Notes under the pieces: model-generated | What the model was told of the DNA's origin: nothing | The model's input: the letters and a program-made list of their open reading frames with translations, nothing else | Databases searched by the model: none | Made by a program: the position numbers and the translations under genes | Shown: in pieces, positions 2,756 through 20,313 of the stretch | Layout: each line of letters begins with the position of its first letter | How positions within the stretch are numbered: the first letter of the stretch is position 1 | NCBI GenBank assembly: GCA_009783235.1 | Contig: WRHN01000001.1 | Span: 1 to 64,000, forward strand | Source of the DNA: Candidatus Saccharimonadota bacterium | GTDB taxonomy: Bacteria > Patescibacteriota > Saccharimonadia > Saccharimonadales > Saccharimonadaceae | Direction of reading: 5' to 3' | DNA: 64,000 bases

Positions 2756-4519
2756 TTATTTCTTCCTAAAAACCGTATATGTTGAATCTGGGTAGAAGCT
2801 AATCCCATGGTCACCAGTGCGGTTACAATGAGAAGCCGAGGCGATCTTCCATGACCCATCAGGTAATTGAATAATCATTTCAATATGGCCCGAGCGCGAA
2901 CGAATGTCGCCTGGCCGAAGATCGGAAGTGTGCCCCGTGTTGGGTATTGTATCATACAAGTCAGAGTGCCTACTGAGGTATCTAAGTTGGTCAGCGGCGC
3001 CGCAGCAAGGAAAGTTCTCGTCAGCTTTTGAATGACGCATGACGGTAGCTACGAAGGCATCGCAGCTTTTGCCGACAATTGTACAACTGTCACCTTCTTT
3101 GCGAGTGCCCACACCGTCGGCCTCGAGCAAGGCAGATCTGTAGGCTGAGTTCGGATCATCAGGCCCGTGGCTTCTGTCTGGCCACGACAGCATAATAGCT
3201 ACGTCGTTTATGCTACCACCACCGCCCGCACAACTGTTACTGCCCGCTATCGCAGCATAGATGGTGAAAGCGCCGTGGTCGGTGTTGGCGGGATATTCTA
3301 TCGAACCGCCGTCTGTCTTAATTTGCCCCCAGGTACCGTTGGATTTAGTTGGCTCTACTGTGGGATCGCGCTTGGCATCAAAGCGGTTCATCACGTAAGG
3401 TGAGCCTTCGCCGTTTTGGGCATCTGCATCACTAAACCCTAAGTTCTTGGCTTGGTTTATGTAGACACCGGCCCGTCCGTTGTAGCCAAAGAAAGTGTAT
3501 TTGATGGCTGCTTCGTCACCTTCTTTTAGCTGGGCCGCCTTGCCACCAGCCTTGCCTTTGATGAATTCAGCAGCTAGATCGGTTTGGCGCTGGAATTCGT
3601 CGTCGCTAATTGCGCCGGTTGGGTAAGGGCCACCATGTTTGTCGTAAAACTGGTAGACACCTTGACCATTAGAGGGGTTAGAACGAGAGAATCTATGCTC
3701 ACGGTAATGAATAACTGCAATCATTTCCCAAGGGATACCGACTTTGTTAGCAGATTTCTCGTAAAATGGGCGGTTGGCCTCCAGGGCTTTTGTCTGGGCG
3801 CCGTTAAAGATATCCTTACCAGAGTAGTCTTTACCGTCGCCACCTCCACCGCCGCCGCCAGAGCCGCCGCCACTAGACTTGATGCTGGACTTGAGAATGC
3901 TGTAAATAGTGTCAACAAACAGCTTGGTGCCGTCTGCGGTTAAGTGAACACCCAATCCGTCACTGTCGTCAATGTTAGTGTCAGCCCTTAGATTAGCGAA
4001 GAAATCCCAGTTTGACACGAAGACATTGTCGTTGTTCTTTGCCGCATCTTGGAATTGCTGGTTGTTCTCACTGTAATAGTTTGGCTGTTTTAGTTTGTAG
4101 TTTCTAACAAAGACGATATTCCTGGTTTTGCCCAGCTTATTGACCATCTTCTGTACGTCGCCTTCTGGTATGGTGCCGTTAGTGCCGAGGGCGACTACGA
4201 CGAAGTCGCGCAAATCAGTCTCTGAATCATTAACCAGCTGCATACCAGTTGGGTTGTCAGCAACGGTACCCGAGAACTGTTTGCCTTTCTTGGCATATAT
4301 CTTTACACCGTCTAATTCTTCTTTGAGGGCAGCAGTAGCTCCTACAGTGATAGAGTCACCTATTACCGTGACTTTGTTGCCATCTGGTTTGTCGTCGCTG
4401 CCGCAAAAGTTGACGAAGCTTTCTTCTGACTGCACTGCGCTTACCATCGTAGGGCCGAATAAAAACAAAGGCCCTAGAGCAACCACCAACGCGCTCAGGT
4501 GCAAAAACAATTTCTTCAT
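2756..4519 (-). CDS. Secreted three-domain cell-wall hydrolase: SGNH + lytic-transglycosylase-like + NlpC/CHAP-like
   Basis: 587 residues. A signal peptide occupies about 1-29. Residues about 48-210 look like an SGNH/GDSL hydrolase: GDSIT with Ser56, GTN at 112-114, and a D187/H192 pair in DGLGVHLTADG. A Gly/Ser linker (216-229) leads to residues about 235-430, which resemble a lysozyme-like lytic transglycosylase fold (WEMIAVIHYREHRF with possible catalytic acids; GVYQFY; FGYNGRAG). The last part, about 437-587, has the layout of an NlpC/P60 or CHAP amidase: SCDAFVATVMRH with Cys486 and GHIEMI with His545. Such proteins deacylate and cut peptidoglycan outside the membrane. It heads an operon with the PEGA gene. 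A TAAAAT box lies 9 bases before the ATG, so translation may be leaderless. Middle-domain assignment is the least certain. Confidence 0.72.
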   Translation of the reverse strand: MKKLFLHLSALVVALGPLFLFGPTMVSAVQSEESFVNFCGSDDKPDGNKVTVIGDSITVGATAALKEELDGVKIYAKKGKQFSGTVADNPTGMQLVNDSETDLRDFVVVALGTNGTIPEGDVQKMVNKLGKTRNIVFVRNYKLKQPNYYSENNQQFQDAAKNNDNVFVSNWDFFANLRADTNIDDSDGLGVHLTADGTKLFVDTIYSILKSSIKSSGGGSGGGGGGGDGKDYSGKDIFNGAQTKALEANRPFYEKSANKVGIPWEMIAVIHYREHRFSRSNPSNGQGVYQFYDKHGGPYPTGAISDDEFQRQTDLAAEFIKGKAGGKAAQLKEGDEAAIKYTFFGYNGRAGVYINQAKNLGFSDADAQNGEGSPYVMNRFDAKRDPTVEPTKSNGTWGQIKTDGGSIEYPANTDHGAFTIYAAIAGSNSCAGGGGSINDVAIMLSWPDRSHGPDDPNSAYRSALLEADGVGTRKEGDSCTIVGKSCDAFVATVMRHSKADENFPCCGAADQLRYLSRHSDLYDTIPNTGHTSDLRPGDIRSRSGHIEMIIQLPDGSWKIASASHCNRTGDHGISFYPDSTYTVFRKK

Positions 4520-6789: not shown

Positions 6790-8229
6790 TTACTTAAGTT
6801 TGTCCGGTGGAATGTTATAGAAGGTTACGTTAGCTGGTATAGAGGTGTAGGTAGCAGTAAAAGAACAGTCACTACTGCCAGACTGCAAGGTGATGTACTT
6901 ACCGTCTTTAGCGCTAACCACTAGGCCAACGTGACCGTAAAGCCAAGTGTCAACTGAACAAGTAGAGCCCCACCCGGCGGGGCCACACTTAACAGAATAT
7001 ATTGCGGGAGCGACCGGTGTCTTGCTGGCACTACCACCGTTTCTTGAGACCAGATTAGGTACAACGTCTTGGCCATTGCCACCACCATGGGTGAACTTGG
7101 TGTACTTGGCAATAAACCAGGTGCCTACTGATGTGCAGTGCCTGAAACCACAACGAATACCACCTAGGGGGTTTGGCTTGTCGGTGTCAGCAGCAAATTC
7201 CCTTCGCAGAGCGGCCATATTAGCTGGGTTAGACCAATCTTTGTCTTGCCAGCTACCAGCGCCCCCCCCAGTGTACGACTGCATTGCGAGGTGAGTGCCA
7301 CTCCCGACGGGCGTGTACTGGTCTCCAGTATCTTGCTCGTCAGTTTGGCCGTTGCCTGAAGAGTCACCAGACGTGCCGCCTCCATTAAAGTCCTTGCTAT
7401 AATCGTCTGGATTTGCGCCGTTAGACTCGATCCAGTCGTCCAGTGCTGATGACGCCGATTCTTTGTCGGTTTTAATTGTAACGTCTAAATTCAGTTTACC
7501 GGTATCATCGTCAAAACCGTCCTGGCTCACATCAACTGCAAAATCTGCTTCTTCGTGGGGCATGTTCTGCAATAAATCATCAGCTTGTGGTAAGCCAATG
7601 CCGGTTGAGTATTGGTCTTTGCAAGAAAATCCCTCATATATCCAGGCGGATTCTTCTAGGCACCACACCGTAGAATTGCCATACCCAGAATCCGCGTCGT
7701 AATCGCTGGTGATGCAGTACGACTGTTCGAGGCTTGGTATGTCGACTATAAAGGACGTATAACCACGGGCGCTGTCAACATCTACGTCTACATCAACTAT
7801 CGCATCAACATCAGCGTCCACGTCTGCTGGGTCCACATCATACTCCGTATCTGCATCCGCTGGATCAACAATATCAATAGGCTCGACAGTAAATCCGTTT
7901 GCGTCCTGGCTCGCGCCTTGTCGGCATATCCCGCCTTCGCGGAAGCGCGCGTCTTCTGGTTGAATACCCTCTTGTCCGTTCAGATCAAGGGCGTCGCGCA
8001 GGCCCTGCTCCATCATCTGGCACTCAACTTCGGGCAGATTGCTATATTCCAAGCAATTAGCTATAGCCACCAAATTATTGTGCTGTCCCGCACCCTTTGA
8101 CCCATCATCGCCAGAGCCTCTACCAAAAATCAGGCCAATTATCACCGCCGCGCCCAGCAGCAACAACAGCAAAATCAACAAGATAATAATAATTTTCTTC
8201 TTCTTTTTCTTGGAATCGTCTTCTTGCAT
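6790..8229 (-). CDS. Membrane-anchored CHAP-domain peptidoglycan amidase
   Basis: 479 residues. A lysine-rich start and membrane helix (about 13-36) anchor it. Residues about 60-205 contain the domain shared with the next gene (SFIVDIPSLEQSY), preceded by an Asp/Val-rich stretch at about 119-153 made of repeated D-V-D units. Residues about 245-282 carry the NGANPDDY module seen also in the PEGA protein. The C-terminal part, about 315-479, is a CHAP-type amidase or endopeptidase: R-H-C-T-S with Cys365 and GHVGLV with His433. AGGAG precedes the ATG. Lying between the BspA-like and VirB6-like genes and its small paralogue, it could be the VirB1-like wall-opening enzyme of a secretion apparatus; that role is inference. 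Confidence 0.72.
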   Translation of the reverse strand: MQEDDSKKKKKKIIIILLILLLLLLGAAVIIGLIFGRGSGDDGSKGAGQHNNLVAIANCLEYSNLPEVECQMMEQGLRDALDLNGQEGIQPEDARFREGGICRQGASQDANGFTVEPIDIVDPADADTEYDVDPADVDADVDAIVDVDVDVDSARGYTSFIVDIPSLEQSYCITSDYDADSGYGNSTVWCLEESAWIYEGFSCKDQYSTGIGLPQADDLLQNMPHEEADFAVDVSQDGFDDDTGKLNLDVTIKTDKESASSALDDWIESNGANPDDYSKDFNGGGTSGDSSGNGQTDEQDTGDQYTPVGSGTHLAMQSYTGGGAGSWQDKDWSNPANMAALRREFAADTDKPNPLGGIRCGFRHCTSVGTWFIAKYTKFTHGGGNGQDVVPNLVSRNGGSASKTPVAPAIYSVKCGPAGWGSTCSVDTWLYGHVGLVVSAKDGKYITLQSGSSDCSFTATYTSIPANVTFYNIPPDKLK

Positions 8230-8258: not shown

Positions 8259-11200
8259 TTATATTTTATCGCCTTCGGCCCATTTGTCTATATAATTATG
8301 TTCACTGGCGGCTTTTGGATTAAAATTACCCAAGTTAATGTCTAATATATTACTGTAAGCAAACATAAACTTAGTGTTTTTTAGACTTTCGTGAGAAAAC
8401 GAACTGAGTTTTAGCGTTTTGTTGTAATGTGTACCAGCGAACATGCCCTCCATGGTCTCCACGCTAGAAGTGTTAAACCTTCCTTTGAAATTAAGATCGT
8501 TAGCGTTCAGCATGGCGTACATCCACGACATGTTTTTGACATTAGAGGTGTCGAATTTGTCATAATTAATGTCAATACTTGGGTACTGCGCGCCAATGAA
8601 CATGCCCTCCATGTTCTCGACGCTAGAAGTGTCAAAGCTAGTCAGGTCGAGCTTAGTGCGAGTGTTATAGTTTTTGCCGTAGTCGGCCGGGTCTTGATCG
8701 CGCCAGTTATTAAGCTCGCGCTTTTGGGCATCTAGGATGGCGATGAACCGGGCCTTCCATTCACCAGCACCCGTAAGACTAAGTGCAAAATTAATAACTG
8801 GATTTATCAAATAACTATTAGTCTCCTCGTCTTTATGCTTAAAATCGGTAACGTATAGTCGGTCAGTCTTGCGCCCGTCGTCCTCGCCAGACGTCGTTTC
8901 TTCTTCGCCGTTTTCGTCAGTAAAGGTTTCCTGCGGCTTTGAGTCTATGCGAAAATTGCCAAACATATAGCTCATATCAGTTACCTGGCTAGTGTCAAAA
9001 CTCTTGAGGTTGACAAAGTCTAAGTTCTTGGCGTTGAAAAACATATTATTCATATCAGTCACATTTGACGTATTGAACTTGAGCGGCGTGGTGTTTTTAA
9101 ACTCAGAGACTGGTTTAAACACAGTGTTAGCAAACATACCGCTCATGTTGGTCACGTTGTCAGTCTTGAAGTTTTTGCCAAAATTAACCGTTTCAGCCTT
9201 GGCATTGAAAAACATATCGTTCATGGTAGTTACCTGGCTGGTATCAAAAGTTGAGATATCTAATTCCTTAGTGTCGCAAGCTTCAAACATGCGCGACATA
9301 CCCGTTACGTTTGACGTGTCGAAACTAGACAGGTCAACAGAGCTGAATCTGGTGTTCAGGAACATGCCGCTCATATCAGTCACGTTGTGAGTTCTGAAGT
9401 GGCTTAACTCTAGCGCGCTACTACTATCCATCGCACCAGAGAACATGAAACTCATGTCGGTCACATTTGAAGTAAGAAACTTATTCGGCGATGCGGTTAT
9501 TTTAGCGCGCGCGCCCTCAAACATATGGCTCATATTTGTAACAGAAAACGTCGATAAGTTGTTAATGTCCACCTCGCCTACTCCTATTGTGAATTCGCGC
9601 CATGTGCTGTCATGGGTGTGGTCGTTATCAATAGTCACTTTGCCAGCAATAGCAGAGAACATATGTCTCATGTCTTCTACCTCGCCTAAATCAAGCGCGA
9701 AAGTTATTTTTTCGAACCTCGAGCTGCTGAACATGCCCGCCATGTTCTTGACGCTGCCAAAGTTCATGCCAGTCTCTTCGCTGTCAAACTCCCCTGCATG
9801 GTTGATGGTGATGTTAGCGAACATATAGCTCATGTCTTCCACGTTGTCAGTGTTAAACCATCGAGTACCATCAGTCAGCTTTATTCTCTCGCTGATTTTA
9901 GCAAAGTTTGCCCCATCAAACATATGGCTCATATTGGTCACGTCGTCAGTGAAAAGACCAGTAAGTTTTATGGTTGTCGGCACTTCCACGAAGTCTGTGT
10001 GACAACTTTTGAAAAAGTCCAAGACTTTATCTTCAGCGGTATGAAGAAACAACTGCGCAAAAAAGCCCGCCTCTTCATAGTTTGGATCAGTCTCTAGTAA
10101 CAATTTAATTTTAGCCTTCCATTGCTTGTAGGCATCTATGAGATCCGCTATCGTTACGCGACCGCTACCGTCAAGACGGCTTATTACGTTCCGCCGCGCG
10201 TCTCCCATGACAGGGTCGACAATGGCTCTCGGGCCATACATGCAATAGTTAGTGTTCTGGCCGGTGTAGTAGAACAGGCCCGACGAGTCGCTCGGCGCCG
10301 AGACCCCGCCATTTTGACTAATCACAATGTCGTAAACGCCAAGATGAACTTTGATTTTATCTTCGACTTCTTTTTGATGCATACATTCTTCAAAATCAGG
10401 GTTGGACACATCCGTCACATTGCCATTAGCGTCGGTCTCCGTTATAAATGGTAGAATCCCTTCTTCCGTCAAGCACTGCATTTCATAACTGATTTTAAAA
10501 GTACCAGCAAACCACTCAAACAAATTAAAGCCACTGGGCCAATCCTCGGTGCGCGCGCGTTCTATGGCGCAGGCTATTACTTCACCGCTCTGGCCAGCCG
10601 AAATATCCCAACACAAGTCGTAGTTGTCTCTAACGTCTTTTCCAGGATCATAACCAACTCCCCAACTGGCGGTATTGCCGGCCCAGGGATTGTCTTTGCC
10701 GTTTGCTTCGGGCGTTTGCTCTGCATCATAGCTGAATTTCGTTGTTTTGAACTCTATGCGCTTAATGTTCTCGCGGCGTATTGGGTCTGGCGCGTTCAGC
10801 CACTTGTGCAGCCCGACGTCCGTGTTCGTGGTGTCTTCGTTACTGTTTTCTTCTTCCTCACGACATTTTTCTTCATCATCCGCCTTTTCGCACGGAACCT
10901 CAGCGACAAATTGCTGATCAGTAGGAATTCCCGTCGAATCAATCAAGTCGGATTCACTTAGCTCATGAGATGCTGGCATTATCGAATCTCGCTGCACGGC
11001 CGCTAGCACTAAGCCTTTGCGGTAGCTGCCCGCTGCAATGTTTGGGTCGACTTCCGCAACAATTGAATAGTCCTCTTCCTGGCTGCGGCTGGTAGAAAAG
11101 TAGGCAGATTCACTCGTAATTTCTTGGTCGTTCATGAATAGTTTAATTTGATCATCGTCAGCCGCCGCCGAAACGCTTTGGCCGAAAACGCTAGCGGTCT

Positions 11201-11618
11201 CAGCAGAATTGTCTAAATTAGCGTAGGTATTGTGGCCGTATGTCCACTTCATTGCTAGTTTTATTTGGCTGTCCGCACTAGCGGTCATTTGACCAGTGTC
11301 TTTAATAATGTCTATAGTTAATATATTAGAGCCCAGGGTTAAGGGGGTGGAATATCGGTGAATGCCCCAATAGCCCCAACCAAACAGGGTCACCACCATG
11401 GCCGCCACACCGAGGTTGCGCCAGAAGTGATTGGCCTTGCGGTATTTAAAGATTATATAAACGACTAGAGCTAGCGCGACTAGGCCGATGAAGATAAGAC
11501 CGATGGTTGGTAGATACTTAATGAAGCCTTGCCAAACTAGGGCAAACCCATGAGGCATGTCCGCCTCGGTGTTGTAGACGTTTACCTTGATGATTTGGTT
11601 TATTGAGTGTGATTGCAT
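8259..11618 (-). CDS. Giant BspA-like surface protein with DUF285-type 26-residue repeats
   Basis: 1119 residues. Two membrane helices lie near the N-terminus (about 35-57 and 67-86) and no cleavable signal is evident. About 460 residues of unknown, Cys-containing sequence follow, then from about residue 545 to the end some 15 or more copies of the repeat typified by FDTSNVTDMSGMF, the hallmark of the DUF285/BspA-like leucine-rich surface proteins of Mycoplasma, Listeria and oral bacteria. Such repeats form elongated stacks used in adhesion. One longer insert breaks the repeats around residues 905-985. The gene sits between the VirB6-like and CHAP genes on one strand, 24 bases after the former, so co-expression is likely. 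Role as the host-contact adhesin is inferred. Confidence 0.8.
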   Translation of the reverse strand: MQSHSINQIIKVNVYNTEADMPHGFALVWQGFIKYLPTIGLIFIGLVALALVVYIIFKYRKANHFWRNLGVAAMVVTLFGWGYWGIHRYSTPLTLGSNILTIDIIKDTGQMTASADSQIKLAMKWTYGHNTYANLDNSAETASVFGQSVSAAADDDQIKLFMNDQEITSESAYFSTSRSQEEDYSIVAEVDPNIAAGSYRKGLVLAAVQRDSIMPASHELSESDLIDSTGIPTDQQFVAEVPCEKADDEEKCREEEENSNEDTTNTDVGLHKWLNAPDPIRRENIKRIEFKTTKFSYDAEQTPEANGKDNPWAGNTASWGVGYDPGKDVRDNYDLCWDISAGQSGEVIACAIERARTEDWPSGFNLFEWFAGTFKISYEMQCLTEEGILPFITETDANGNVTDVSNPDFEECMHQKEVEDKIKVHLGVYDIVISQNGGVSAPSDSSGLFYYTGQNTNYCMYGPRAIVDPVMGDARRNVISRLDGSGRVTIADLIDAYKQWKAKIKLLLETDPNYEEAGFFAQLFLHTAEDKVLDFFKSCHTDFVEVPTTIKLTGLFTDDVTNMSHMFDGANFAKISERIKLTDGTRWFNTDNVEDMSYMFANITINHAGEFDSEETGMNFGSVKNMAGMFSSSRFEKITFALDLGEVEDMRHMFSAIAGKVTIDNDHTHDSTWREFTIGVGEVDINNLSTFSVTNMSHMFEGARAKITASPNKFLTSNVTDMSFMFSGAMDSSSALELSHFRTHNVTDMSGMFLNTRFSSVDLSSFDTSNVTGMSRMFEACDTKELDISTFDTSQVTTMNDMFFNAKAETVNFGKNFKTDNVTNMSGMFANTVFKPVSEFKNTTPLKFNTSNVTDMNNMFFNAKNLDFVNLKSFDTSQVTDMSYMFGNFRIDSKPQETFTDENGEEETTSGEDDGRKTDRLYVTDFKHKDEETNSYLINPVINFALSLTGAGEWKARFIAILDAQKRELNNWRDQDPADYGKNYNTRTKLDLTSFDTSSVENMEGMFIGAQYPSIDINYDKFDTSNVKNMSWMYAMLNANDLNFKGRFNTSSVETMEGMFAGTHYNKTLKLSSFSHESLKNTKFMFAYSNILDINLGNFNPKAASEHNYIDKWAEGDKI

Positions 11619-11642: not shown

Positions 11643-13829
11643 TTAACTCTTGCTGTTATTATTAGTATTGTTATTGTGAGGAATACTGCCGCCGCCGGCC
11701 ACCTTAGCGTTAACATTTATGTCAACTTTAATTTTTTCTAAGTTGGCGTGTGCTGCATTGTTCTCTTTCGGACGAGCCTGGGAATTATCGCCGGTCAAAA
11801 CTTCTTTGATGATTTCTTTGCTGTTGTTGCTCAAATTATCGTAGGTGCCTCTGTCCATACTAGCAACACCATTGGCTATCGCGTCGTCAGCATTATCAGT
11901 AAACGAACCGTTTTGCATAGCCTCGATGTCAGCAGGATTAAACATCCCAGTGCCCGCCGCTACTTCAGCAATAGCGCGGTTGTGGTCTGTTGAGACGCCG
12001 GGTTGTATGCCGCCAAGAAGCGACCGTAAGCCTTCTAGTGAATTAGCATCTTGGCCTTGACCGCCCATGGACACGCTACCGATAGTACCATGTTCAACGT
12101 GGACGTTGGCTATACCACCTGCGCCACCACCTGCGCCACCACCAGAGCCACCACTAAGCGCTTTCTGTGCTTTTGCTTCGGTAAGAGCCTCCTCCTCGTA
12201 TTTTCCTTGTGCTTTGAACGTTTCAAGCGATCCACCGCCAGCCAAGTGACCATGTAGCCGCTTCTTGGCATTGGCTTCCCTTCCTGTTTTTACCGTCTCT
12301 CCAATGCCCAATACTTTGTCTCCACCCGGCGCGGCTTTAACGGCGCCCTTAACCATCCCCCCAAGTATGTTCTTGCCAGCCACAGCAGCTCCCACGCCAC
12401 CGGTGGCTACACTGGCCCCAACCATCCCTACGGTTTTAACTGCGCCACTCACAGCTTGCGACGCTGCACCCATGGCTGACGAGGTGGAGGTGATGACTTT
12501 CTTGACGAAGAAGACGGGAGTGGCCATAGCTGCTAAAATCATGGGCACGGCCATTACATTGGTCGCAGTTCCGGCTAGGACAAGAGCGGTTAATTGTGAA
12601 GCTGCAAACAACATCATGACGGCTGGGTAGACCATTAACATATGGCCGAAATGGTGGAGCCATTTCTGGAATATCTTATTGGTATTGGGTAGTATGCCAA
12701 GCACAAAAGCCAGCGGCGAGACGATTATCAAAGCCACCAACATAACGTTGCGGACAGCCGCAAGCACCACGGCAATAATTAGTTGGACGATCATAATGAC
12801 TACGAGGGCTACCAGTATGATGGCAACAATTACCACTAAGTGGCCCGCTAAGGCGGCTTCAAGAACCATATCCGTACCAGCGTCACTAAAACTCTGGTCT
12901 GCTTTGTCTTTGCTAATCTTGCTTATCAGGGCACCCATGATGGCAGACGAGTTCGTGCCGCTGAAAACATCTGCCATGTCAGATGCTGCCACAGCGTCAA
13001 CGAACGGACCGCTAACTGTTCCAGTCGTGCCACCACCAACACCACCAACACTAGATATACTGTTTGTCGCAATACTATTTATACTAGAACCGACAATATT
13101 AGACAAGTCATTCAAAGCTGCGCATACATAAAAAGACGTATTGATTGCTATGGCCATGATAAGTAACTTGGGTAACGTTTTTTTAATACCGTAATTCGAC
13201 AGCGCGCCAAAGCCCTGACCCGAACCAAAAGCAGTGGCGGCAACTATAATCAGGAATATGACGGCAAGGATGACATTAGCGATAGTGGTGATGTATTCGT
13301 TCATCGCTTTCATGTAATCGCTGCCGCCACTAAACAAGAAATTAGTGTTCAAGATCCCGCCGAGTATGCCTTGTGTCATGGCCACCATAATGCCTACCAT
13401 TTCAATGGCCGGACAAGCGAGAAGAGCTATAGGCAGTGAACTAGGCGCCTGCGCAACAAACTTCGCCACACACGTTGCAATATTCACAAGGCCAACAAGG
13501 AAGTTCCCAACAGCCTTAAAAAATCCACCTATAGTTTTGATAACTTCATCTAAGCCAAACAGCCCAAATTGTTCAGTAGTCGAGCCAATCACTGTGCTGG
13601 CAATTGAATCACTCCCCGCCGCCAAGTTTGCCGCCTCCACCTGTGCAGCTTTGGCATTCATGCTGGCTTCGATTGATGCTGCTGAAACATTGGCCACCAG
13701 TGGCCCAACCGTTACGTTAAAGACCAATGCAAAAACGGCCGCCAGAAGCGCCGTACGCTTAAAAAATCCAACTCTACTCTTTTTATTTTTGCCAGCAGTT
13801 TTATTTCTCCGCCCACTAAACATAACCAT
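11643..13829 (-). CDS. VirB6/TrbL-like polytopic type IV secretion protein
   Basis: 728 residues. A basic start and signal-like helix (about 27-50) is followed by about eight hydrophobic segments up to residue 460, including a long run around VVIVAIILVALVVIM and a following SPLAFVLGILPNT stretch typical of the TrbL/VirB6 family, the channel component in the inner membrane. The last 260 residues are soluble, rich in Gly, Ala, Asn, and probably cytoplasmic or flexible. A TGC-TATAAT box (13837-13842) ends 7 bases before the ATG, so transcripts should be leaderless. It faces the pilin genes across a 99-bp divergent promoter region. No VirB4 or VirD4 ATPase is inside the window. Family call is moderate, based on topology and context. 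Confidence 0.65.
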   Translation of the reverse strand: MVMFSGRRNKTAGKNKKSRVGFFKRTALLAAVFALVFNVTVGPLVANVSAASIEASMNAKAAQVEAANLAAGSDSIASTVIGSTTEQFGLFGLDEVIKTIGGFFKAVGNFLVGLVNIATCVAKFVAQAPSSLPIALLACPAIEMVGIMVAMTQGILGGILNTNFLFSGGSDYMKAMNEYITTIANVILAVIFLIIVAATAFGSGQGFGALSNYGIKKTLPKLLIMAIAINTSFYVCAALNDLSNIVGSSINSIATNSISSVGGVGGGTTGTVSGPFVDAVAASDMADVFSGTNSSAIMGALISKISKDKADQSFSDAGTDMVLEAALAGHLVVIVAIILVALVVIMIVQLIIAVVLAAVRNVMLVALIIVSPLAFVLGILPNTNKIFQKWLHHFGHMLMVYPAVMMLFAASQLTALVLAGTATNVMAVPMILAAMATPVFFVKKVITSTSSAMGAASQAVSGAVKTVGMVGASVATGGVGAAVAGKNILGGMVKGAVKAAPGGDKVLGIGETVKTGREANAKKRLHGHLAGGGSLETFKAQGKYEEEALTEAKAQKALSGGSGGGAGGGAGGIANVHVEHGTIGSVSMGGQGQDANSLEGLRSLLGGIQPGVSTDHNRAIAEVAAGTGMFNPADIEAMQNGSFTDNADDAIANGVASMDRGTYDNLSNNSKEIIKEVLTGDNSQARPKENNAAHANLEKIKVDINVNAKVAGGGSIPHNNNTNNNSKS

Positions 13830-13889
13830 ATTTGGGATTATAGCACAAGTTTTATACGCAGCGCAATAATTTTTATAATTTTTCTTAAT

Positions 13890-13919
13890 TTGACAATTCC
13901 ATAGCGGTTATAGTATTAT
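13890..13919 (+). promoter_or_regulatory. Promoter of the first pilin genes
   Basis: TTGACA at 13890-13895, 18-base spacer and TATTAT at 13914-13919, ending 9 bases before the ATG at 13929. It is divergent from the promoter of the VirB6-like gene (13837-13842). Confidence 0.6.
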
Positions 13920-13928
13920 CTAAAGCAT

Positions 13929-14309
13929 ATGATTAAAAAACTAAAATTAACCTTGGTAAGCTTGGCGATAGTAGTGGCGGGTGCTGTGGCGTCTTCACCA
14001 GTTGCACATGCTGCGGACTGCGGTGACCAGAAAGATACATATTTTGACTGGGGTTGCGATGCTAGTAAAGGAGATGGTATATCCCAACTAGTTTGGGCTG
14101 TCTTTACTATAGTGTCCGGCGTAGTCGCTGCCGCTTGTTTAGGAGCCATTGTCTTCGGTGCGATTCGCTATTCGTCGGCCAACAGCAACGCTAGCGCTGC
14201 CAAGGAAGGTTTAGATATTATCCGTAACGCAATCATTGCCCTGGTGCTCTACGGCTGTTTCTGGGCACTCGTTGCACTTCTAATAAATGATACGAGGTTT
14301 GGTCCATGA
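13929..14309 (+). CDS. VirB2/TrbC-like pilin subunit 1
   Basis: 126 residues: a signal peptide ending near A-H-A (about residue 28), two cysteines in the mature N-terminus, then two membrane helices separated by a short loop containing RYSSANSNASAAKEG. This two-helix build after a cleaved leader is that of VirB2/TrbC pilins, the shaft subunits of conjugative type IV secretion pili. It is the most divergent of the group, lacking the AAGDE loop of the others. Its stop overlaps the next start as ATGA, so translation is coupled to the fused pilin gene. No Shine-Dalgarno site is seen; the promoter lies very close. Confidence 0.65.
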   Translation: MIKKLKLTLVSLAIVVAGAVASSPVAHAADCGDQKDTYFDWGCDASKGDGISQLVWAVFTIVSGVVAAACLGAIVFGAIRYSSANSNASAAKEGLDIIRNAIIALVLYGCFWALVALLINDTRFGP

Positions 14310-15136
14310 TAGCAAACGTATTCACCCCCCCCCTTGTTTTGGCAGCAGCAAATAAATTTTTGGGGCTGCGTTCGCCTACTGAGGGTACGTGTTTTGCACC
14401 GGGCAACGACTGTGGTGGTGCGCCCATTGGTGATGCAATATCTGGGATTGTTGGCAATATCATTGGCGATTTATTCATTATAGCTGCTTTTGTGGCGGCC
14501 ATGTTCGTTATTTACGGTGGTATTATGTATGTCATCTCCATGGGCGACTCAGGCAAGATGGCGGGCGCTAAAGATACTTTGACCCGAGCTTTGATGGGGT
14601 TTTTCTTGAGTTTGATAGCTAATGTTATAGTTACTGTGATACTCACTGCGATGAACGCAAACCAGGGCAAAGCTGGCGAAATCTCTGACCTGGGAGCTTT
14701 AATTAGCGAGGTGTTAATGCTAGTAGGTATACTGGGCGTGGTCATGACTATTATTTCTGGTATTTTGTACGGCATTTCGGCTGGTGATACATCCAAGGTT
14801 ACTAAGGCCAAAAATGCCTTGATCACTTCTCTGGCTGGAACGGTAATTGCTTTCATGGCCACGGCTATTATTAATCTTATTGGTGGCACCTTTGCGCAGG
14901 TTCCTAGCAATCTTGCCGGCTTGGCAGGCGCTGTTATCCCAGTTCTAATGTGGGTGACGGGCGTAATATCGGTAGTTGGTTTGGTGGTTGCTGGTATTAT
15001 GTACTCTACCGCCGCTGGCGATGAATCCAAAATTGTCCGTGCTAAAAATTACATTAAATTTGCTTTAGTTGGCTTGGCGGTTGCCCTGCTAGCGTTTGTC
15101 TTGCAAACGTTTGTATTAGATGCGGTGGGGGCATAA
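14306..15136 (+). CDS. Fused triple VirB2/TrbC-like pilin protein
   Basis: 276 residues holding three consecutive VirB2-like units, each of two membrane helices around a small polar loop: loops at VISMGDSGKMAGAK (unit 1), GISAGDTSKVTKAK (unit 2) and STAAGDESKIVRAK (unit 3). The units span about residues 48-118, 125-195 and 205-276. Ordinary pilins of this family have one unit, so this is a natural concatemer, made either of permanently linked subunits or processed later. The N-terminus has no clear signal peptide but has two Cys (C34 and C40). A run of nine C (14325-14333) in codons 7-10 is a mutable tract. It follows pilin 1 by a 4-base overlap and is followed 2 bases later by another pilin gene. 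Confidence 0.7.
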   Translation: MIANVFTPPLVLAAANKFLGLRSPTEGTCFAPGNDCGGAPIGDAISGIVGNIIGDLFIIAAFVAAMFVIYGGIMYVISMGDSGKMAGAKDTLTRALMGFFLSLIANVIVTVILTAMNANQGKAGEISDLGALISEVLMLVGILGVVMTIISGILYGISAGDTSKVTKAKNALITSLAGTVIAFMATAIINLIGGTFAQVPSNLAGLAGAVIPVLMWVTGVISVVGLVVAGIMYSTAAGDESKIVRAKNYIKFALVGLAVALLAFVLQTFVLDAVGA

Positions 15137-15138
15137 AA

Positions 15139-15534
15139 ATGAAAAAGGTTTTAGCGACACTACTTACTACACTTGTTCTAGCGCTCGGTCTGGGCGGTGT
15201 TGTCTATAGCTATAATTATAGCGATAACCCGGGGTGTGAAGAGAAATACGGCACAGTTCAAGTTGAATGCTCAACGTCGGGCTACAACGAAGTCAACACT
15301 GGCAGCAACAATGCCGAAGATACCATCGGCACCGCTATGGGTGCTGTTATGTGGGTGGTTGGCGTAATTGCGGTGTTGATGATAATAATCGGCGGAATTC
15401 AGTACGCTACCGCTGCTGGTGATGAGTCAAAAACAGCCAAAGCCAAGAAGATTATCGTTGGTGCGATTATTGGTCTAGCCGTGGCGATTTTGGCTGGTGT
15501 TTTAATTAACTTAGTGCTAAACAACATTAATTAA
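15139..15534 (+). CDS. VirB2/TrbC-like pilin subunit 2
   Basis: 131 residues: hydrophobic signal sequence (about 1-24), a mature N-terminal region of about 40 residues with two cysteines, then the two-helix pilin core with the family loop QYATAAGDESKTAKAKK. It starts 2 bases after the fused pilin gene, and the end of that gene provides a weak GGGG site before the ATG, so it is the third gene of the same operon. Helix-loop-helix residues match the later pilins closely (IIVGAIIGLAVAILAG), indicating tandem duplication. Confidence 0.7.
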   Translation: MKKVLATLLTTLVLALGLGGVVYSYNYSDNPGCEEKYGTVQVECSTSGYNEVNTGSNNAEDTIGTAMGAVMWVVGVIAVLMIIIGGIQYATAAGDESKTAKAKKIIVGAIIGLAVAILAGVLINLVLNNIN

Positions 15535-15571
15535 AATGTCTATAATTATGTCCGCGCTATTTAGATAAGTG

Positions 15572-15600
15572 TTGACTTAAGCAAAATAGTTTATTAAAAT
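15572..15600 (+). promoter_or_regulatory. Internal promoter for the second pilin block
   Basis: TTGACT at 15572-15577, 17-base spacer, TAAAAT at 15595-15600, about 40 bases before the ATG at 15642. The 107-base gap and this promoter split the pilin array into two transcription units. Confidence 0.6.
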
Positions 15601-15641
15601 GTAGTAAATAGAAATTTATAAAAGAAGTATAGGAGATAAAA

Positions 15642-15974
15642 ATGAAAGAAATCTTAATGCAACTAGCGGCACCACAAGCCAGAGTTAACGGCATTACAAA
15701 CAACGAATCAGCAATCAGCGGTGGTACTGGTGGTTTGGCAAACGGCACCCTAGAGGGTACCATAACCCAGGTTATCAACGTCATTATGTGGGTTATCGGT
15801 GTTATTTCTGTCATCATGCTTATTTATGGTGGTATTCAATACGCCATTTCGGCTGGTGATGAGAAAAAAGTTACCTCGGCTAAAAACACCATTATCTACG
15901 CTATTGTCGGTCTAGCGATTGCTATCCTTGCCTTAGTCGTCGTCAACTTTGTCATAGTTAACATTGGCTCGTAG
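15642..15974 (+). CDS. VirB2/TrbC-like pilin subunit 3
   Basis: 110 residues, the shortest of the set. The N-terminal 40 residues are polar (Gly, Asn, Thr rich) without an obvious signal peptide, then come two membrane helices with the loop QYAISAGDEKKVTSAKN. AGGAG sits 7 bases before the ATG, a proper Shine-Dalgarno site, in contrast with the upstream pilin genes. It opens the second pilin operon. Lack of a leader peptide suggests either a different export route or an internal membrane role. Confidence 0.7.
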   Translation: MKEILMQLAAPQARVNGITNNESAISGGTGGLANGTLEGTITQVINVIMWVIGVISVIMLIYGGIQYAISAGDEKKVTSAKNTIIYAIVGLAIAILALVVVNFVIVNIGS

Positions 15975-16003
15975 TCAAGAGCAATTTCTAGAGAGAATAA
16001 GAC

Positions 16004-16381
16004 ATGAAGTTTAGAATCAATAGTATCATTGGAAAACTGGTCGGCGGTTTCGCTGTAGCCAGCGCAGCATTAGTTGCTGGGGCCATTCGGGTTCAGGCAA
16101 TCGGACTAGAGAGCGGAAAGTCGGCTGCTGGTAAAGGCAATGGTCTAAGCAAGGGTGACGCGGACACAACCGTAACAAATATAGTTAACGTTGCCATGTA
16201 CGCCATCGGCGTTATTTCAGTCATCATAATTATCTATGCTGGCATTATGTACGCCACTGCCGCTGGCGACGAAGCCAAGGTTAAAAAAGCCAAAAACACT
16301 ATAGTTGGCGGCGTAATTGGTCTAGCCATTTCAATATTAGCTTTGGTGATAGTTAATTTTGTTATAGCCCAGGTAAAATAG
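16004..16381 (+). CDS. VirB2/TrbC-like pilin subunit 4
   Basis: 125 residues: signal peptide about 1-32 ending in V-Q-A, a polar mature N-terminus rich in Gly, Lys and Ser, and the two-helix core with loop MYATAAGDEAKVKKAKN followed by GGVIGLAISILALVIVNFVI. It follows pilin 3 by 29 bases with AGAGAG as a weak ribosome site. The core is nearly identical to that of the next gene while the N-terminal parts differ, a pattern expected if the exposed end diversifies and the packing core is kept. Confidence 0.7.
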   Translation: MKFRINSIIGKLVGGFAVASAALVAGAIRVQAIGLESGKSAAGKGNGLSKGDADTTVTNIVNVAMYAIGVISVIIIIYAGIMYATAAGDEAKVKKAKNTIVGGVIGLAISILALVIVNFVIAQVK

Positions 16382-16387
16382 GCGCGA

Positions 16388-16795
16388 ATGGACAATATGA
16401 GGAAAAACCCCACAACAAAGAGTTCAAAAAAATCGCCAAGCTTCTTAGCCTCGGCAATTGGTGTTGCCGCACTTTGTTCGACAGCAGCGAACAACAGCGT
16501 AATGGCGGGGAGCGGTATTAGAGACGGCGTTACCGCTGCTGCTGATCCGGGCAGCGGGATAGTTAGTAGTGATGCCGATACCGTAGTTGGCAATATCACC
16601 AGCGTTGCTATGTGGGCGGTCGGCATTATCTCCGTTGTAATCATTATCTTCTCTGGCATTATGTACGCTACTGCCGCTGGCGACGAATCTAAAACTAAAA
16701 AGGCACAGAAAGCCCTAGTCGGTGGGATAATCGGCCTAGCCATTGCAATATTAGCTTTGGTGATAGTTAACTTTGTTATTAAAGAAGTTAGATAA
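16388..16795 (+). CDS. VirB2/TrbC-like pilin subunit 5
   Basis: 135 residues. A lysine-rich start and a weak signal helix (about 18-40) are followed by a polar region and the two-helix core with MYATAAGDESKTKKAQK and GGIIGLAIAILALVIVNFVI. It starts 6 bases after pilin 4 and is the last of the array; the next gene converges on it from the other strand. Its core differs from pilin 4 by only a few conservative substitutions. No terminator with a clear stem is visible in the 37-base gap. Confidence 0.7.
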   Translation: MDNMRKNPTTKSSKKSPSFLASAIGVAALCSTAANNSVMAGSGIRDGVTAAADPGSGIVSSDADTVVGNITSVAMWAVGIISVVIIIFSGIMYATAAGDESKTKKAQKALVGGIIGLAIAILALVIVNFVIKEVR

Positions 16796-19388: not shown

Positions 19389-20313
19389 GGTGGATTTCCT
19401 CAATAAAATACAGCGGTCGTCGCTTGGTTTCGTCAAAAATACGTCCTACGTACTCGCCGATAATCCCCAGCGCCAACAACTGCACCCCCCCCAGGAACAA
19501 TATCACCGACATCATCGACGGCCAACCGCTGGTGTCTGGCCCGTGAATCAAAGTTCTAATAACCACGAACAGAATAAAAATAAAGCTAGCTAGAGAAATT
19601 GCTAAGCCCAGTATGGTGGCAAACCGCAAAGGAGCGGTGGTAAAAGAAGTAATGCCGTCAATGGCATGTTTAATGAGTGTCCCCCATCTGAGTTTAGTCT
19701 TCCCAGCCGCGCGCGCCTGCCGTCGATAAGTAATTTCTTTCTTAGAAAAACCAATCCAGCTGTAAAACGCCTTGGTGTTGCGGTTAGTCTCGCTGAGCTT
19801 GCGCAGAGCCGCCACACATTTTTTATCTAGCAGCCGAAAATCACCGGTGTGTTCTTGAATGGGAATCTTGGTAGTGCGCTTTAGCACTTTAAAATAGCCC
19901 CAAGAAGTGAACTTTTTCATAAACGATTCGCCGTCGCGCGACACTCGCCTAGCATAAACATCGTCAAAACCTTGTTGCCAAAACTTGACCATTTTGGGCA
20001 CTAACTCTGGCGGGTCTTGCAAATCAGCATCAAGTATAATCACCGCATCGCTAGTCAAGTGGTCAATTCCAGCTTTCAGCGCAGTTTCTTTGCCGAAATT
20101 GCGCGACAAGCGAACAAAATTGACGCGCTTATCGCGCACAGCAGCGTCCCTTAAAAGGTCTAGCGTACGGTCTTTGCTGCCATCGTCAACAAAAAGAAAT
20201 TCTAGATTATATGACTTCAACTTGTCAGACAATTTGTTCAGGCGCCTAAAGAGCGCCGGCAAGACGTCCTCTTCGTTATAAGCTGGTATCAAAATCGTGA
20301 TAGATTTTTTCAT
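19366..20313 (-). CDS. Family 2 glycosyltransferase, GtrB / dolichol-phosphate-mannose synthase-like
   Basis: 315 residues. The GT2 catalytic part (about 1-225) shows ILIPAYNEED, LFVDDGSKDRT and ILDADLQDPPE, where the D-A-D motif binds the metal and nucleotide sugar. Two C-terminal membrane helices (about 230-255 and 270-295) are as in GtrB and bacterial DPM-like enzymes. These transfer a sugar from UDP- or GDP-sugar to undecaprenyl phosphate at the inner membrane face. The GtrA-like flippase follows with overlap. TAAAAT ends 6 bases before the ATG, so the mRNA is probably leaderless. Confidence 0.88.
   Translation of the reverse strand: MKKSITILIPAYNEEDVLPALFRRLNKLSDKLKSYNLEFLFVDDGSKDRTLDLLRDAAVRDKRVNFVRLSRNFGKETALKAGIDHLTSDAVIILDADLQDPPELVPKMVKFWQQGFDDVYARRVSRDGESFMKKFTSWGYFKVLKRTTKIPIQEHTGDFRLLDKKCVAALRKLSETNRNTKAFYSWIGFSKKEITYRRQARAAGKTKLRWGTLIKHAIDGITSFTTAPLRFATILGLAISLASFIFILFVVIRTLIHGPDTSGWPSMMSVILFLGGVQLLALGIIGEYVGRIFDETKRRPLYFIEEIHLGKNSRK

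Follow-up and report, generated by a model that had tools for sequence, protein, structure and literature searches.

Why does a type IV secretion system (T4SS) locus carry six pilin genes in tandem, when known VirB2 pili consist of one single pilin? The question is raised by a stretch of 64,000 nucleotides (the window: positions 1 to 64,000 of contig WRHN01000001.1, assembly GCA_009783235.1) of a metagenome-assembled genome from the class Saccharimonadia (TM7), belonging to a very small bacterium of parasitic type, in which an array of pilin genes occupies positions 13929-16795 of the forward strand, next to a divergent VirB6-like gene. The original prediction, made from the sequence alone, saw here a VirB2-type pilus of mixed or switchable composition, used for host contact and not for plasmid transfer. 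The answer favoured below is that the array probably encodes a T4SS pilus or conduit of fixed, hetero-subunit composition for host contact or exchange, with the pilins of the first positions (P1, P2, and less certainly P3) specialised and the later units serving as bulk pilins. VirB2-type pilins are thus retained, a mixed composition is plausible, plasmid transfer is unlikely, and switching is not upheld.

The six genes comprise eight units of the T4SS_pilin family (PF18895), which are the whole-genome total, none being found outside the array in a six-frame search. All six products exceed the curated PF18895 cut-off of 26.6 bits, with E-values from 1.7e-8 to 2.5e-16, and among the aligned pilin members PF18895 is matched in 36 of 36 and TrbC/VirB2 (PF04956) additionally in 14. 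Pilin gene 1 (13929-14309, +; 126 aa) codes for unit u1, at position P1, with a predicted Sec-type signal (AHA/AD), a two-cysteine ectodomain, and a PF18895 core (E=1.7e-8). Gene 2 (14306-15136, +; 276 aa) is a fusion of three units, u2-u4, its product being matched by PF18895 three times, and u2 is P2-like (FLGL...C...C). Gene 3 (15139-15534, +; 131 aa) codes for u5, with a two-cysteine ectodomain, a PF18895 match (E=2e-13), and an NF045849 score over the cut-off, and gene 4 (15642-15974, +; 110 aa; E=3.2e-13) for u6, P6/P5-like and with little or no signal peptide. The array is closed by gene 5 (16004-16381, +; 125 aa; E=3.7e-10) and gene 6 (16388-16795, +; 135 aa; E=3.4e-10), coding for u7 and u8, respectively, which are sisters in the tree.

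The predicted arrangement of eight pilin units in six tandem genes beside a VirB6-like gene is therefore confirmed in its layout, with all units belonging to PF18895. The cores had also been called near-identical, which fails across the array, pairwise core identity being 18-71% with u1 and u2 at no more than 36%, and holds as high similarity only among the downstream units (u4-u8, 44-71%). For these downstream genes the proposed pattern of a constant core with a different N-terminus is real, the cores of u5-u8 being 48-72% and their N-termini 21-36% identical. In the u7/u8 pair the values are 72% and 26%, and u8 is, judged by its core, a recent duplicate of u7.

Such an array had been regarded as anomalous, a single VirB2 being the classical state. 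Within the class it is the norm: the pilin family was found in 58 of 61 sampled relatives and in 112 of 117 near-complete Saccharimonadia genomes, 111 of these 112 also having VirB4. According to a recent survey (Quinonero-Coronel et al. 2025, PMC12102498), tandem arrays of 2-11 VirB2-like PF18895 pilins lie near virB4/virB6 in Patescibacteria and are especially abundant in Saccharimonadia and Microgenomatia. The five pilin-negative genomes (98-100% complete) have neither VirB4 (0/5) nor VirB6 (0/5), and the association of pilin with VirB4 is strong (Fisher p=3.6e-8, phylogeny ignored). Since pilins, VirB4, and VirB6 are lost together, the array is tied to the T4SS. As the five genomes fall in five families, four of which hold other sampled genomes with the system, the loss is taken to be repeated, and a system reported essential in Southlakia epibionticum seems to have been lost several times in its class. 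Genomes without detectable VirB4, VirB6, or T4SS pilin are G056, G062, G104, G138, and G148.

Whether the units of an array are interchangeable or distinct was approached by comparing 98 full or partial arrays, 57 from searched genomes (the window included) and 41 from named records. In the standard array P1-P5 are tightly packed or overlapping, and P6 follows after a gap of 55-95 bp. When positions were assigned from the cores only, leaving one genome out (27 genera, trained on 26), 148 of 162 units were placed correctly, a result that is partly within-family. Between the window's own family and other families, in either direction of training, P1 and P2 were each recognised in 25 of 27 cases and P3 in 13 of 27, while P4-P6 were mixed; in the harder direction 44 of 90 assignments were correct overall, against 7-22 with permuted labels. 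The tree agrees in having a P1 clade with 100/100 support and in grouping P2 and most P3 units, with P4-P6 clustering by family and sometimes pairing within a genome. The view that all six positions are order-wide orthologs was rejected on the family-to-family test and the tree, both of which show deep ancestry for P1, P2, and in part P3 only.

The early positions also carry signatures of their own. P1 has two cysteines (25/27) and a PGG tail (25/27), and P2 has two cysteines (24/27) and a W[YF] motif (22/27); the P1 tail and the P2 motif are also found outside this order, elsewhere in the class. P3 is short and devoid of cysteine (24/27), with a signal-like N-terminus in just 5 of 25. P1 and P2 are thus ancient position-specific pilins, P3-type units less certainly so, and P4-P6 turn over within lineages.

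The window array is, on its placements in the tree, a divergent version of this layout that has kept P1 and P2 and added to them one unplaced unit and five lineage-specific paralogs. Unit u1 lies inside the P1 clade (100/100 support) and u2 inside the P2 clade, each on a long branch; u3, perhaps P3-like, falls in none of the position groups, and u4-u8 form a lineage-specific clade with support of 99/84. The best position models for u6 are P6 (96 bits) and P5 (95 bits). Several genomes of the same family carry an extra PF18895 pilin, encoded on the other strand at about 1.3-2 kb from the end of the array (L043 17247-17666, L046 19144-19575, L047 17413-17838, and L050 18197-18601); no such extra pilin is present in the window.

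The two parts of the array are likely to be expressed separately. An extended -10 motif, TGNTATAA, occurs in the first long gap in 36 of 79 arrays, compared with 1.6 in dinucleotide shuffles, its TATAA lying mostly 25-40 bp before the start codon, and because of this conservation separate expression of the later pilins from the predicted internal promoter is considered likely. In the window a promoter-like site (TTGACT-N17-TAAAAT, 15572-15600, +) is found in the 107 bp that separate u5 from u6, in the same place as the conserved internal promoter of the relatives. Another promoter-like site (TTGACA-N18-TATTAT, 13890-13919, +) precedes pilin gene 1, within the 99 bp between it and the divergent virB6. 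A class-wide plan of a T4SS pilus or conduit may be tentatively proposed from these features, in which minor VirB2-type pilins (P1 with the PGG tail, P2 with W[YF], and the signal-less P3) are combined, at a fixed composition, with lineage-specific bulk pilins that have an internal promoter of their own.

Varied ends on a shared core could also mean variants of one subunit. In the Bartonella Trw T4SS there are multiple tandem trwL (virB2) genes and no coupling protein, and the system serves host-cell contact (PMC2610397). There and for the Patescibacteria arrays (the latter in PMC12102498) it has been proposed that the VirB2 copies are equivalent in function and differ in their exposed ends, which would widen the host range or switch the pilus face. 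The contrast between cores and N-termini of u5-u8 would suit such variants, as would the radiation of u4-u8 with its recent u7/u8 duplication and a slippage-prone C9 tract at codon 7 of gene 2 (14325-14333, +), a candidate switch at which a +1 or -1 slip would bring a translation stop within 60 codons. This explanation is nevertheless improbable, as P1 and P2 keep both their positions and their exposed motifs across families and orders, and the pilin series of S. epibionticum has been reported to be essential (PMC10633639), which fits non-redundant pilins. No promoter is flanked by the inverted repeats found around the array, which appear to be matches by chance. C/G tracts of at least 8 number 17 genome-wide (besides the one in gene 2, at 7262, at 19485, and in about 14 other places), several of them in housekeeping genes. 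Phase switching was rejected on these grounds; the switchable composition of the original prediction is not supported. C/G homopolymers of 8-10 occur at 25 per Mb in this genome and at 4.5 per Mb in the loci of relatives, about five times more densely, in surface and housekeeping genes alike. Since P1 and P2 are position-specific orthologs with conserved signatures, most of the variation in the ends reflects constant differences from one part to another, and with the first pilins as ancient distinct parts a mixed filament of fixed composition is more probable than a switchable one. The later paralogs, whose ends have diverged around a conserved core, could still vary in relation to the host.

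The predicted structures are those of simple membrane hairpins. Most pilin members have, as read from their sequences, a Sec-type leader and a short basic loop, and in the AlphaFold2 model of the gene 4 product two helices (37-69 and 74-109; predicted local distance difference test, pLDDT, >90) form a hairpin. A Foldseek search of the PDB with this single-hairpin model returned only non-specific helical hairpins and nothing significant, the fold being too simple to discriminate. The model of the 276-aa triple-unit protein has six helices or more at modest confidence and likewise gave nothing significant against the PDB in Foldseek, and a PDB sequence search with the pilin profile gave no pilin match. 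Each unit being a two-helix hairpin, fusion of units would preserve the topology. Fused genes were found in 34 of the 98 arrays, with two units in 33 and with three in the window only.

The nearest part of the secretion machine is the VirB6-like polytopic membrane protein (11643-13829, -; 728 aa). As in relatives, its gene is divergent from the array, with 99 bp between its start and the first pilin. Its identity as a VirB6 homologue is supported by synteny and by family-level matches, 6 of 20 members of the family reaching TrbL/VirB6 PF04610 (best E 4e-4); a direct Pfam match of the window protein was rejected, only relatives matching PF04610. A contig scan with it as the query found nothing, and VirB4 was used as the query instead. 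The presence of a VirB4-type ATPase, on which the original prediction depended, was confirmed: VirB4 (NF045971 over the cut-off; P-loop_TraG at E=2e-27; 72-77% identical to VirB4 of named Candidatus Saccharibacteria/Saccharimonadia records), a TrsD-like protein, and PrgI (E=2.8e-14) are encoded in an operon beside dnaA-dnaN-recF at 214-218 kb of contig C2. Contig C3 codes for a second VirB6 and for a T4SS-locus protein of 738 aa. In relatives there is mostly one cluster, consisting of (a cell-wall enzyme), a large protein, virB4, trsD, prgI, and virB6, followed by the divergent pilins, whereas in this genome its parts appear to lie at three loci or more. At the end of contig C2 stands polA, and contig C1 begins with the window, the gap between the parts not being fixed by the assembly.

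A VirB4 and a VirD4-like protein of 904 aa, encoded at about 204 kb of the window's contig, could be read as parts of a conjugative DNA transfer system with an amplified pilin. This is very improbable. The relaxase family PF03432, the one searched, was not found in the genome, other relaxase (MOB) classes not having been searched; the lone type IV coupling protein (VirD4-like) gene lies about 190 kb from the array and also far from virB4; and relaxases are absent from most such clusters (PMC12102498).

Two other genes of the window may be related to the system. The GDSL/cell-wall-enzyme-like protein encoded at 2756-4519 (-) has homologues downstream of virB4 in the T4SS loci of some relatives and may have a VirB1-like role. 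The surface protein of 1119 aa (8259-11618, -), encoded 24 bp downstream of virB6, has N-terminal transmembrane segments and DUF285/PARCEL repeats (PF03382 E=9e-58; TIGR02167); no homologue was found in the annotated T4SS loci of relatives. It is a putative adhesin, possibly a host adhesin coupled to the T4SS. Elsewhere in the sample, both the second VirB6 and the 738-aa protein have close homologues (4e-186 and 4e-224) in G003 (L098), a genome of the same family that shows no VirB4 and no pilin, for which its completeness of 91% may account. In some genomes (G023:C1 568-573 kb, G004:C30, G008:C1, G137:C7, and others) pilin units lie near another VirB4, divergent (37-40% identical) from the first, in what looks like a separate, possibly mobile T4SS.

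The combination of fixed early parts with later bulk ones points to a pilus or conduit of hetero-subunit composition. On this reading the locus is the pilin module of a chromosomal, co-opted T4SS, in which P1 and P2, and less certainly the P3-type, are subunits of ancient specialisation, each with exposed ends of its own, and the later units closely related bulk pilins, duplicating within lineages and starting behind the internal promoter. Inserted in the membrane, each pilin would form a hairpin of two helices, its basic AGDE/K-rich loop being cytoplasmic and later luminal. In known T4SSs VirB2 is taken from the membrane onto a VirB6 platform by VirB4 (PMC9259494), and by homology and linkage VirB4 would act on these pilins in the same way. 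P1-P3 would each sit at a set point of the structure (base, tip, or adaptor), the shaft would be built of units of the P4-P6 type, and the function would be host contact or exchange in epibiotic growth and not conjugation. Filament formation, the placement of the subunits, and the cargo are what we infer from these genes.

Several points weigh against this reading. No filament or complex has been seen; the hairpin model cannot tell VirB2 from other hairpins; u1 is devoid of the PGG tail; u3-u8 are not confidently assignable to positions; and P4-P6 are not individually conserved between families. A thick pilus of N. lyticus seen in cryo-electron tomography was judged unlikely to be the T4SS (PMC12206443). 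That no T4SS filament was identified among the pili in the same study would suit a system with no extracellular filament, the pilins lining an envelope-level conduit or pore on VirB6 for uptake from the host or delivery into it. Uptake has been proposed (PMC11665869, PMC12857230), and the tight linkage to VirB6 and VirB4, the many different subunits suited to a complex of defined stoichiometry, and the fused genes suited to a closed ring point the same way. VirB2-type hairpins polymerise into pili in known T4SSs, which makes a conduit without any filament a possible but rather unlikely arrangement.

How far, then, does the locus resemble known systems? The Patescibacteria T4SS is described in PMC12102498 as co-opted, MPF_FATA-like, and mostly without relaxase, its high variability suggesting host adaptation. 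The genome examined here has VirB4, PrgI, and TrsD, a VirB6 homologue by the array, and pilins whose presence across the class tracks VirB4. The window array is like those described in being a PF18895 tandem array near virB6, and differs in its three-unit fused gene and in having the virB4-trsD-prgI operon on another contig by dnaA. Likened by description and not by sequence, it resembles the T4SS of the Saccharibacterium S. epibionticum ML1 (SEML1_0006-0019), with a pilin series reported as essential for epibiotic growth (Wang et al. 2023, PMC10633639) and six sequence-divergent pilins (reviewed in PMC12857230), although that locus is one contiguous cluster and this one apparently at least three loci. 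Tandem VirB2 paralogs are shared with Bartonella Trw, but that system is of a diderm and has duplicated trwL and trwJ-trwH blocks, reported as variant copies; in the present arrays, by contrast, the pilins of the first positions differ from one another as subunits and are conserved as such. Compared with the pilin-like protein of the Mycoplasma integrative conjugative element (NF045849, Mbov_0395 family), genes 2 and 3 score 48.2 and 41.5, respectively, against a cut-off of 40, and the VirB4 and TrsD-like proteins match Mbov_0397 below the cut-off. The array type is thus already known, and what is added is the co-loss, the ancient position-specific P1-P3, and the conserved internal promoter motif; neither position-specific subunits nor an internal promoter is described in the available portion of PMC12102498.

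This matters because the T4SS is reported essential for the epibiotic growth of a cultured Saccharibacterium. The five genomes without the system indicate that it is not needed everywhere in the class, and they offer a natural comparison for its role. What had been many variable pilins becomes a testable list of subunits, with P1 and P2 singled out as the parts to look at first.

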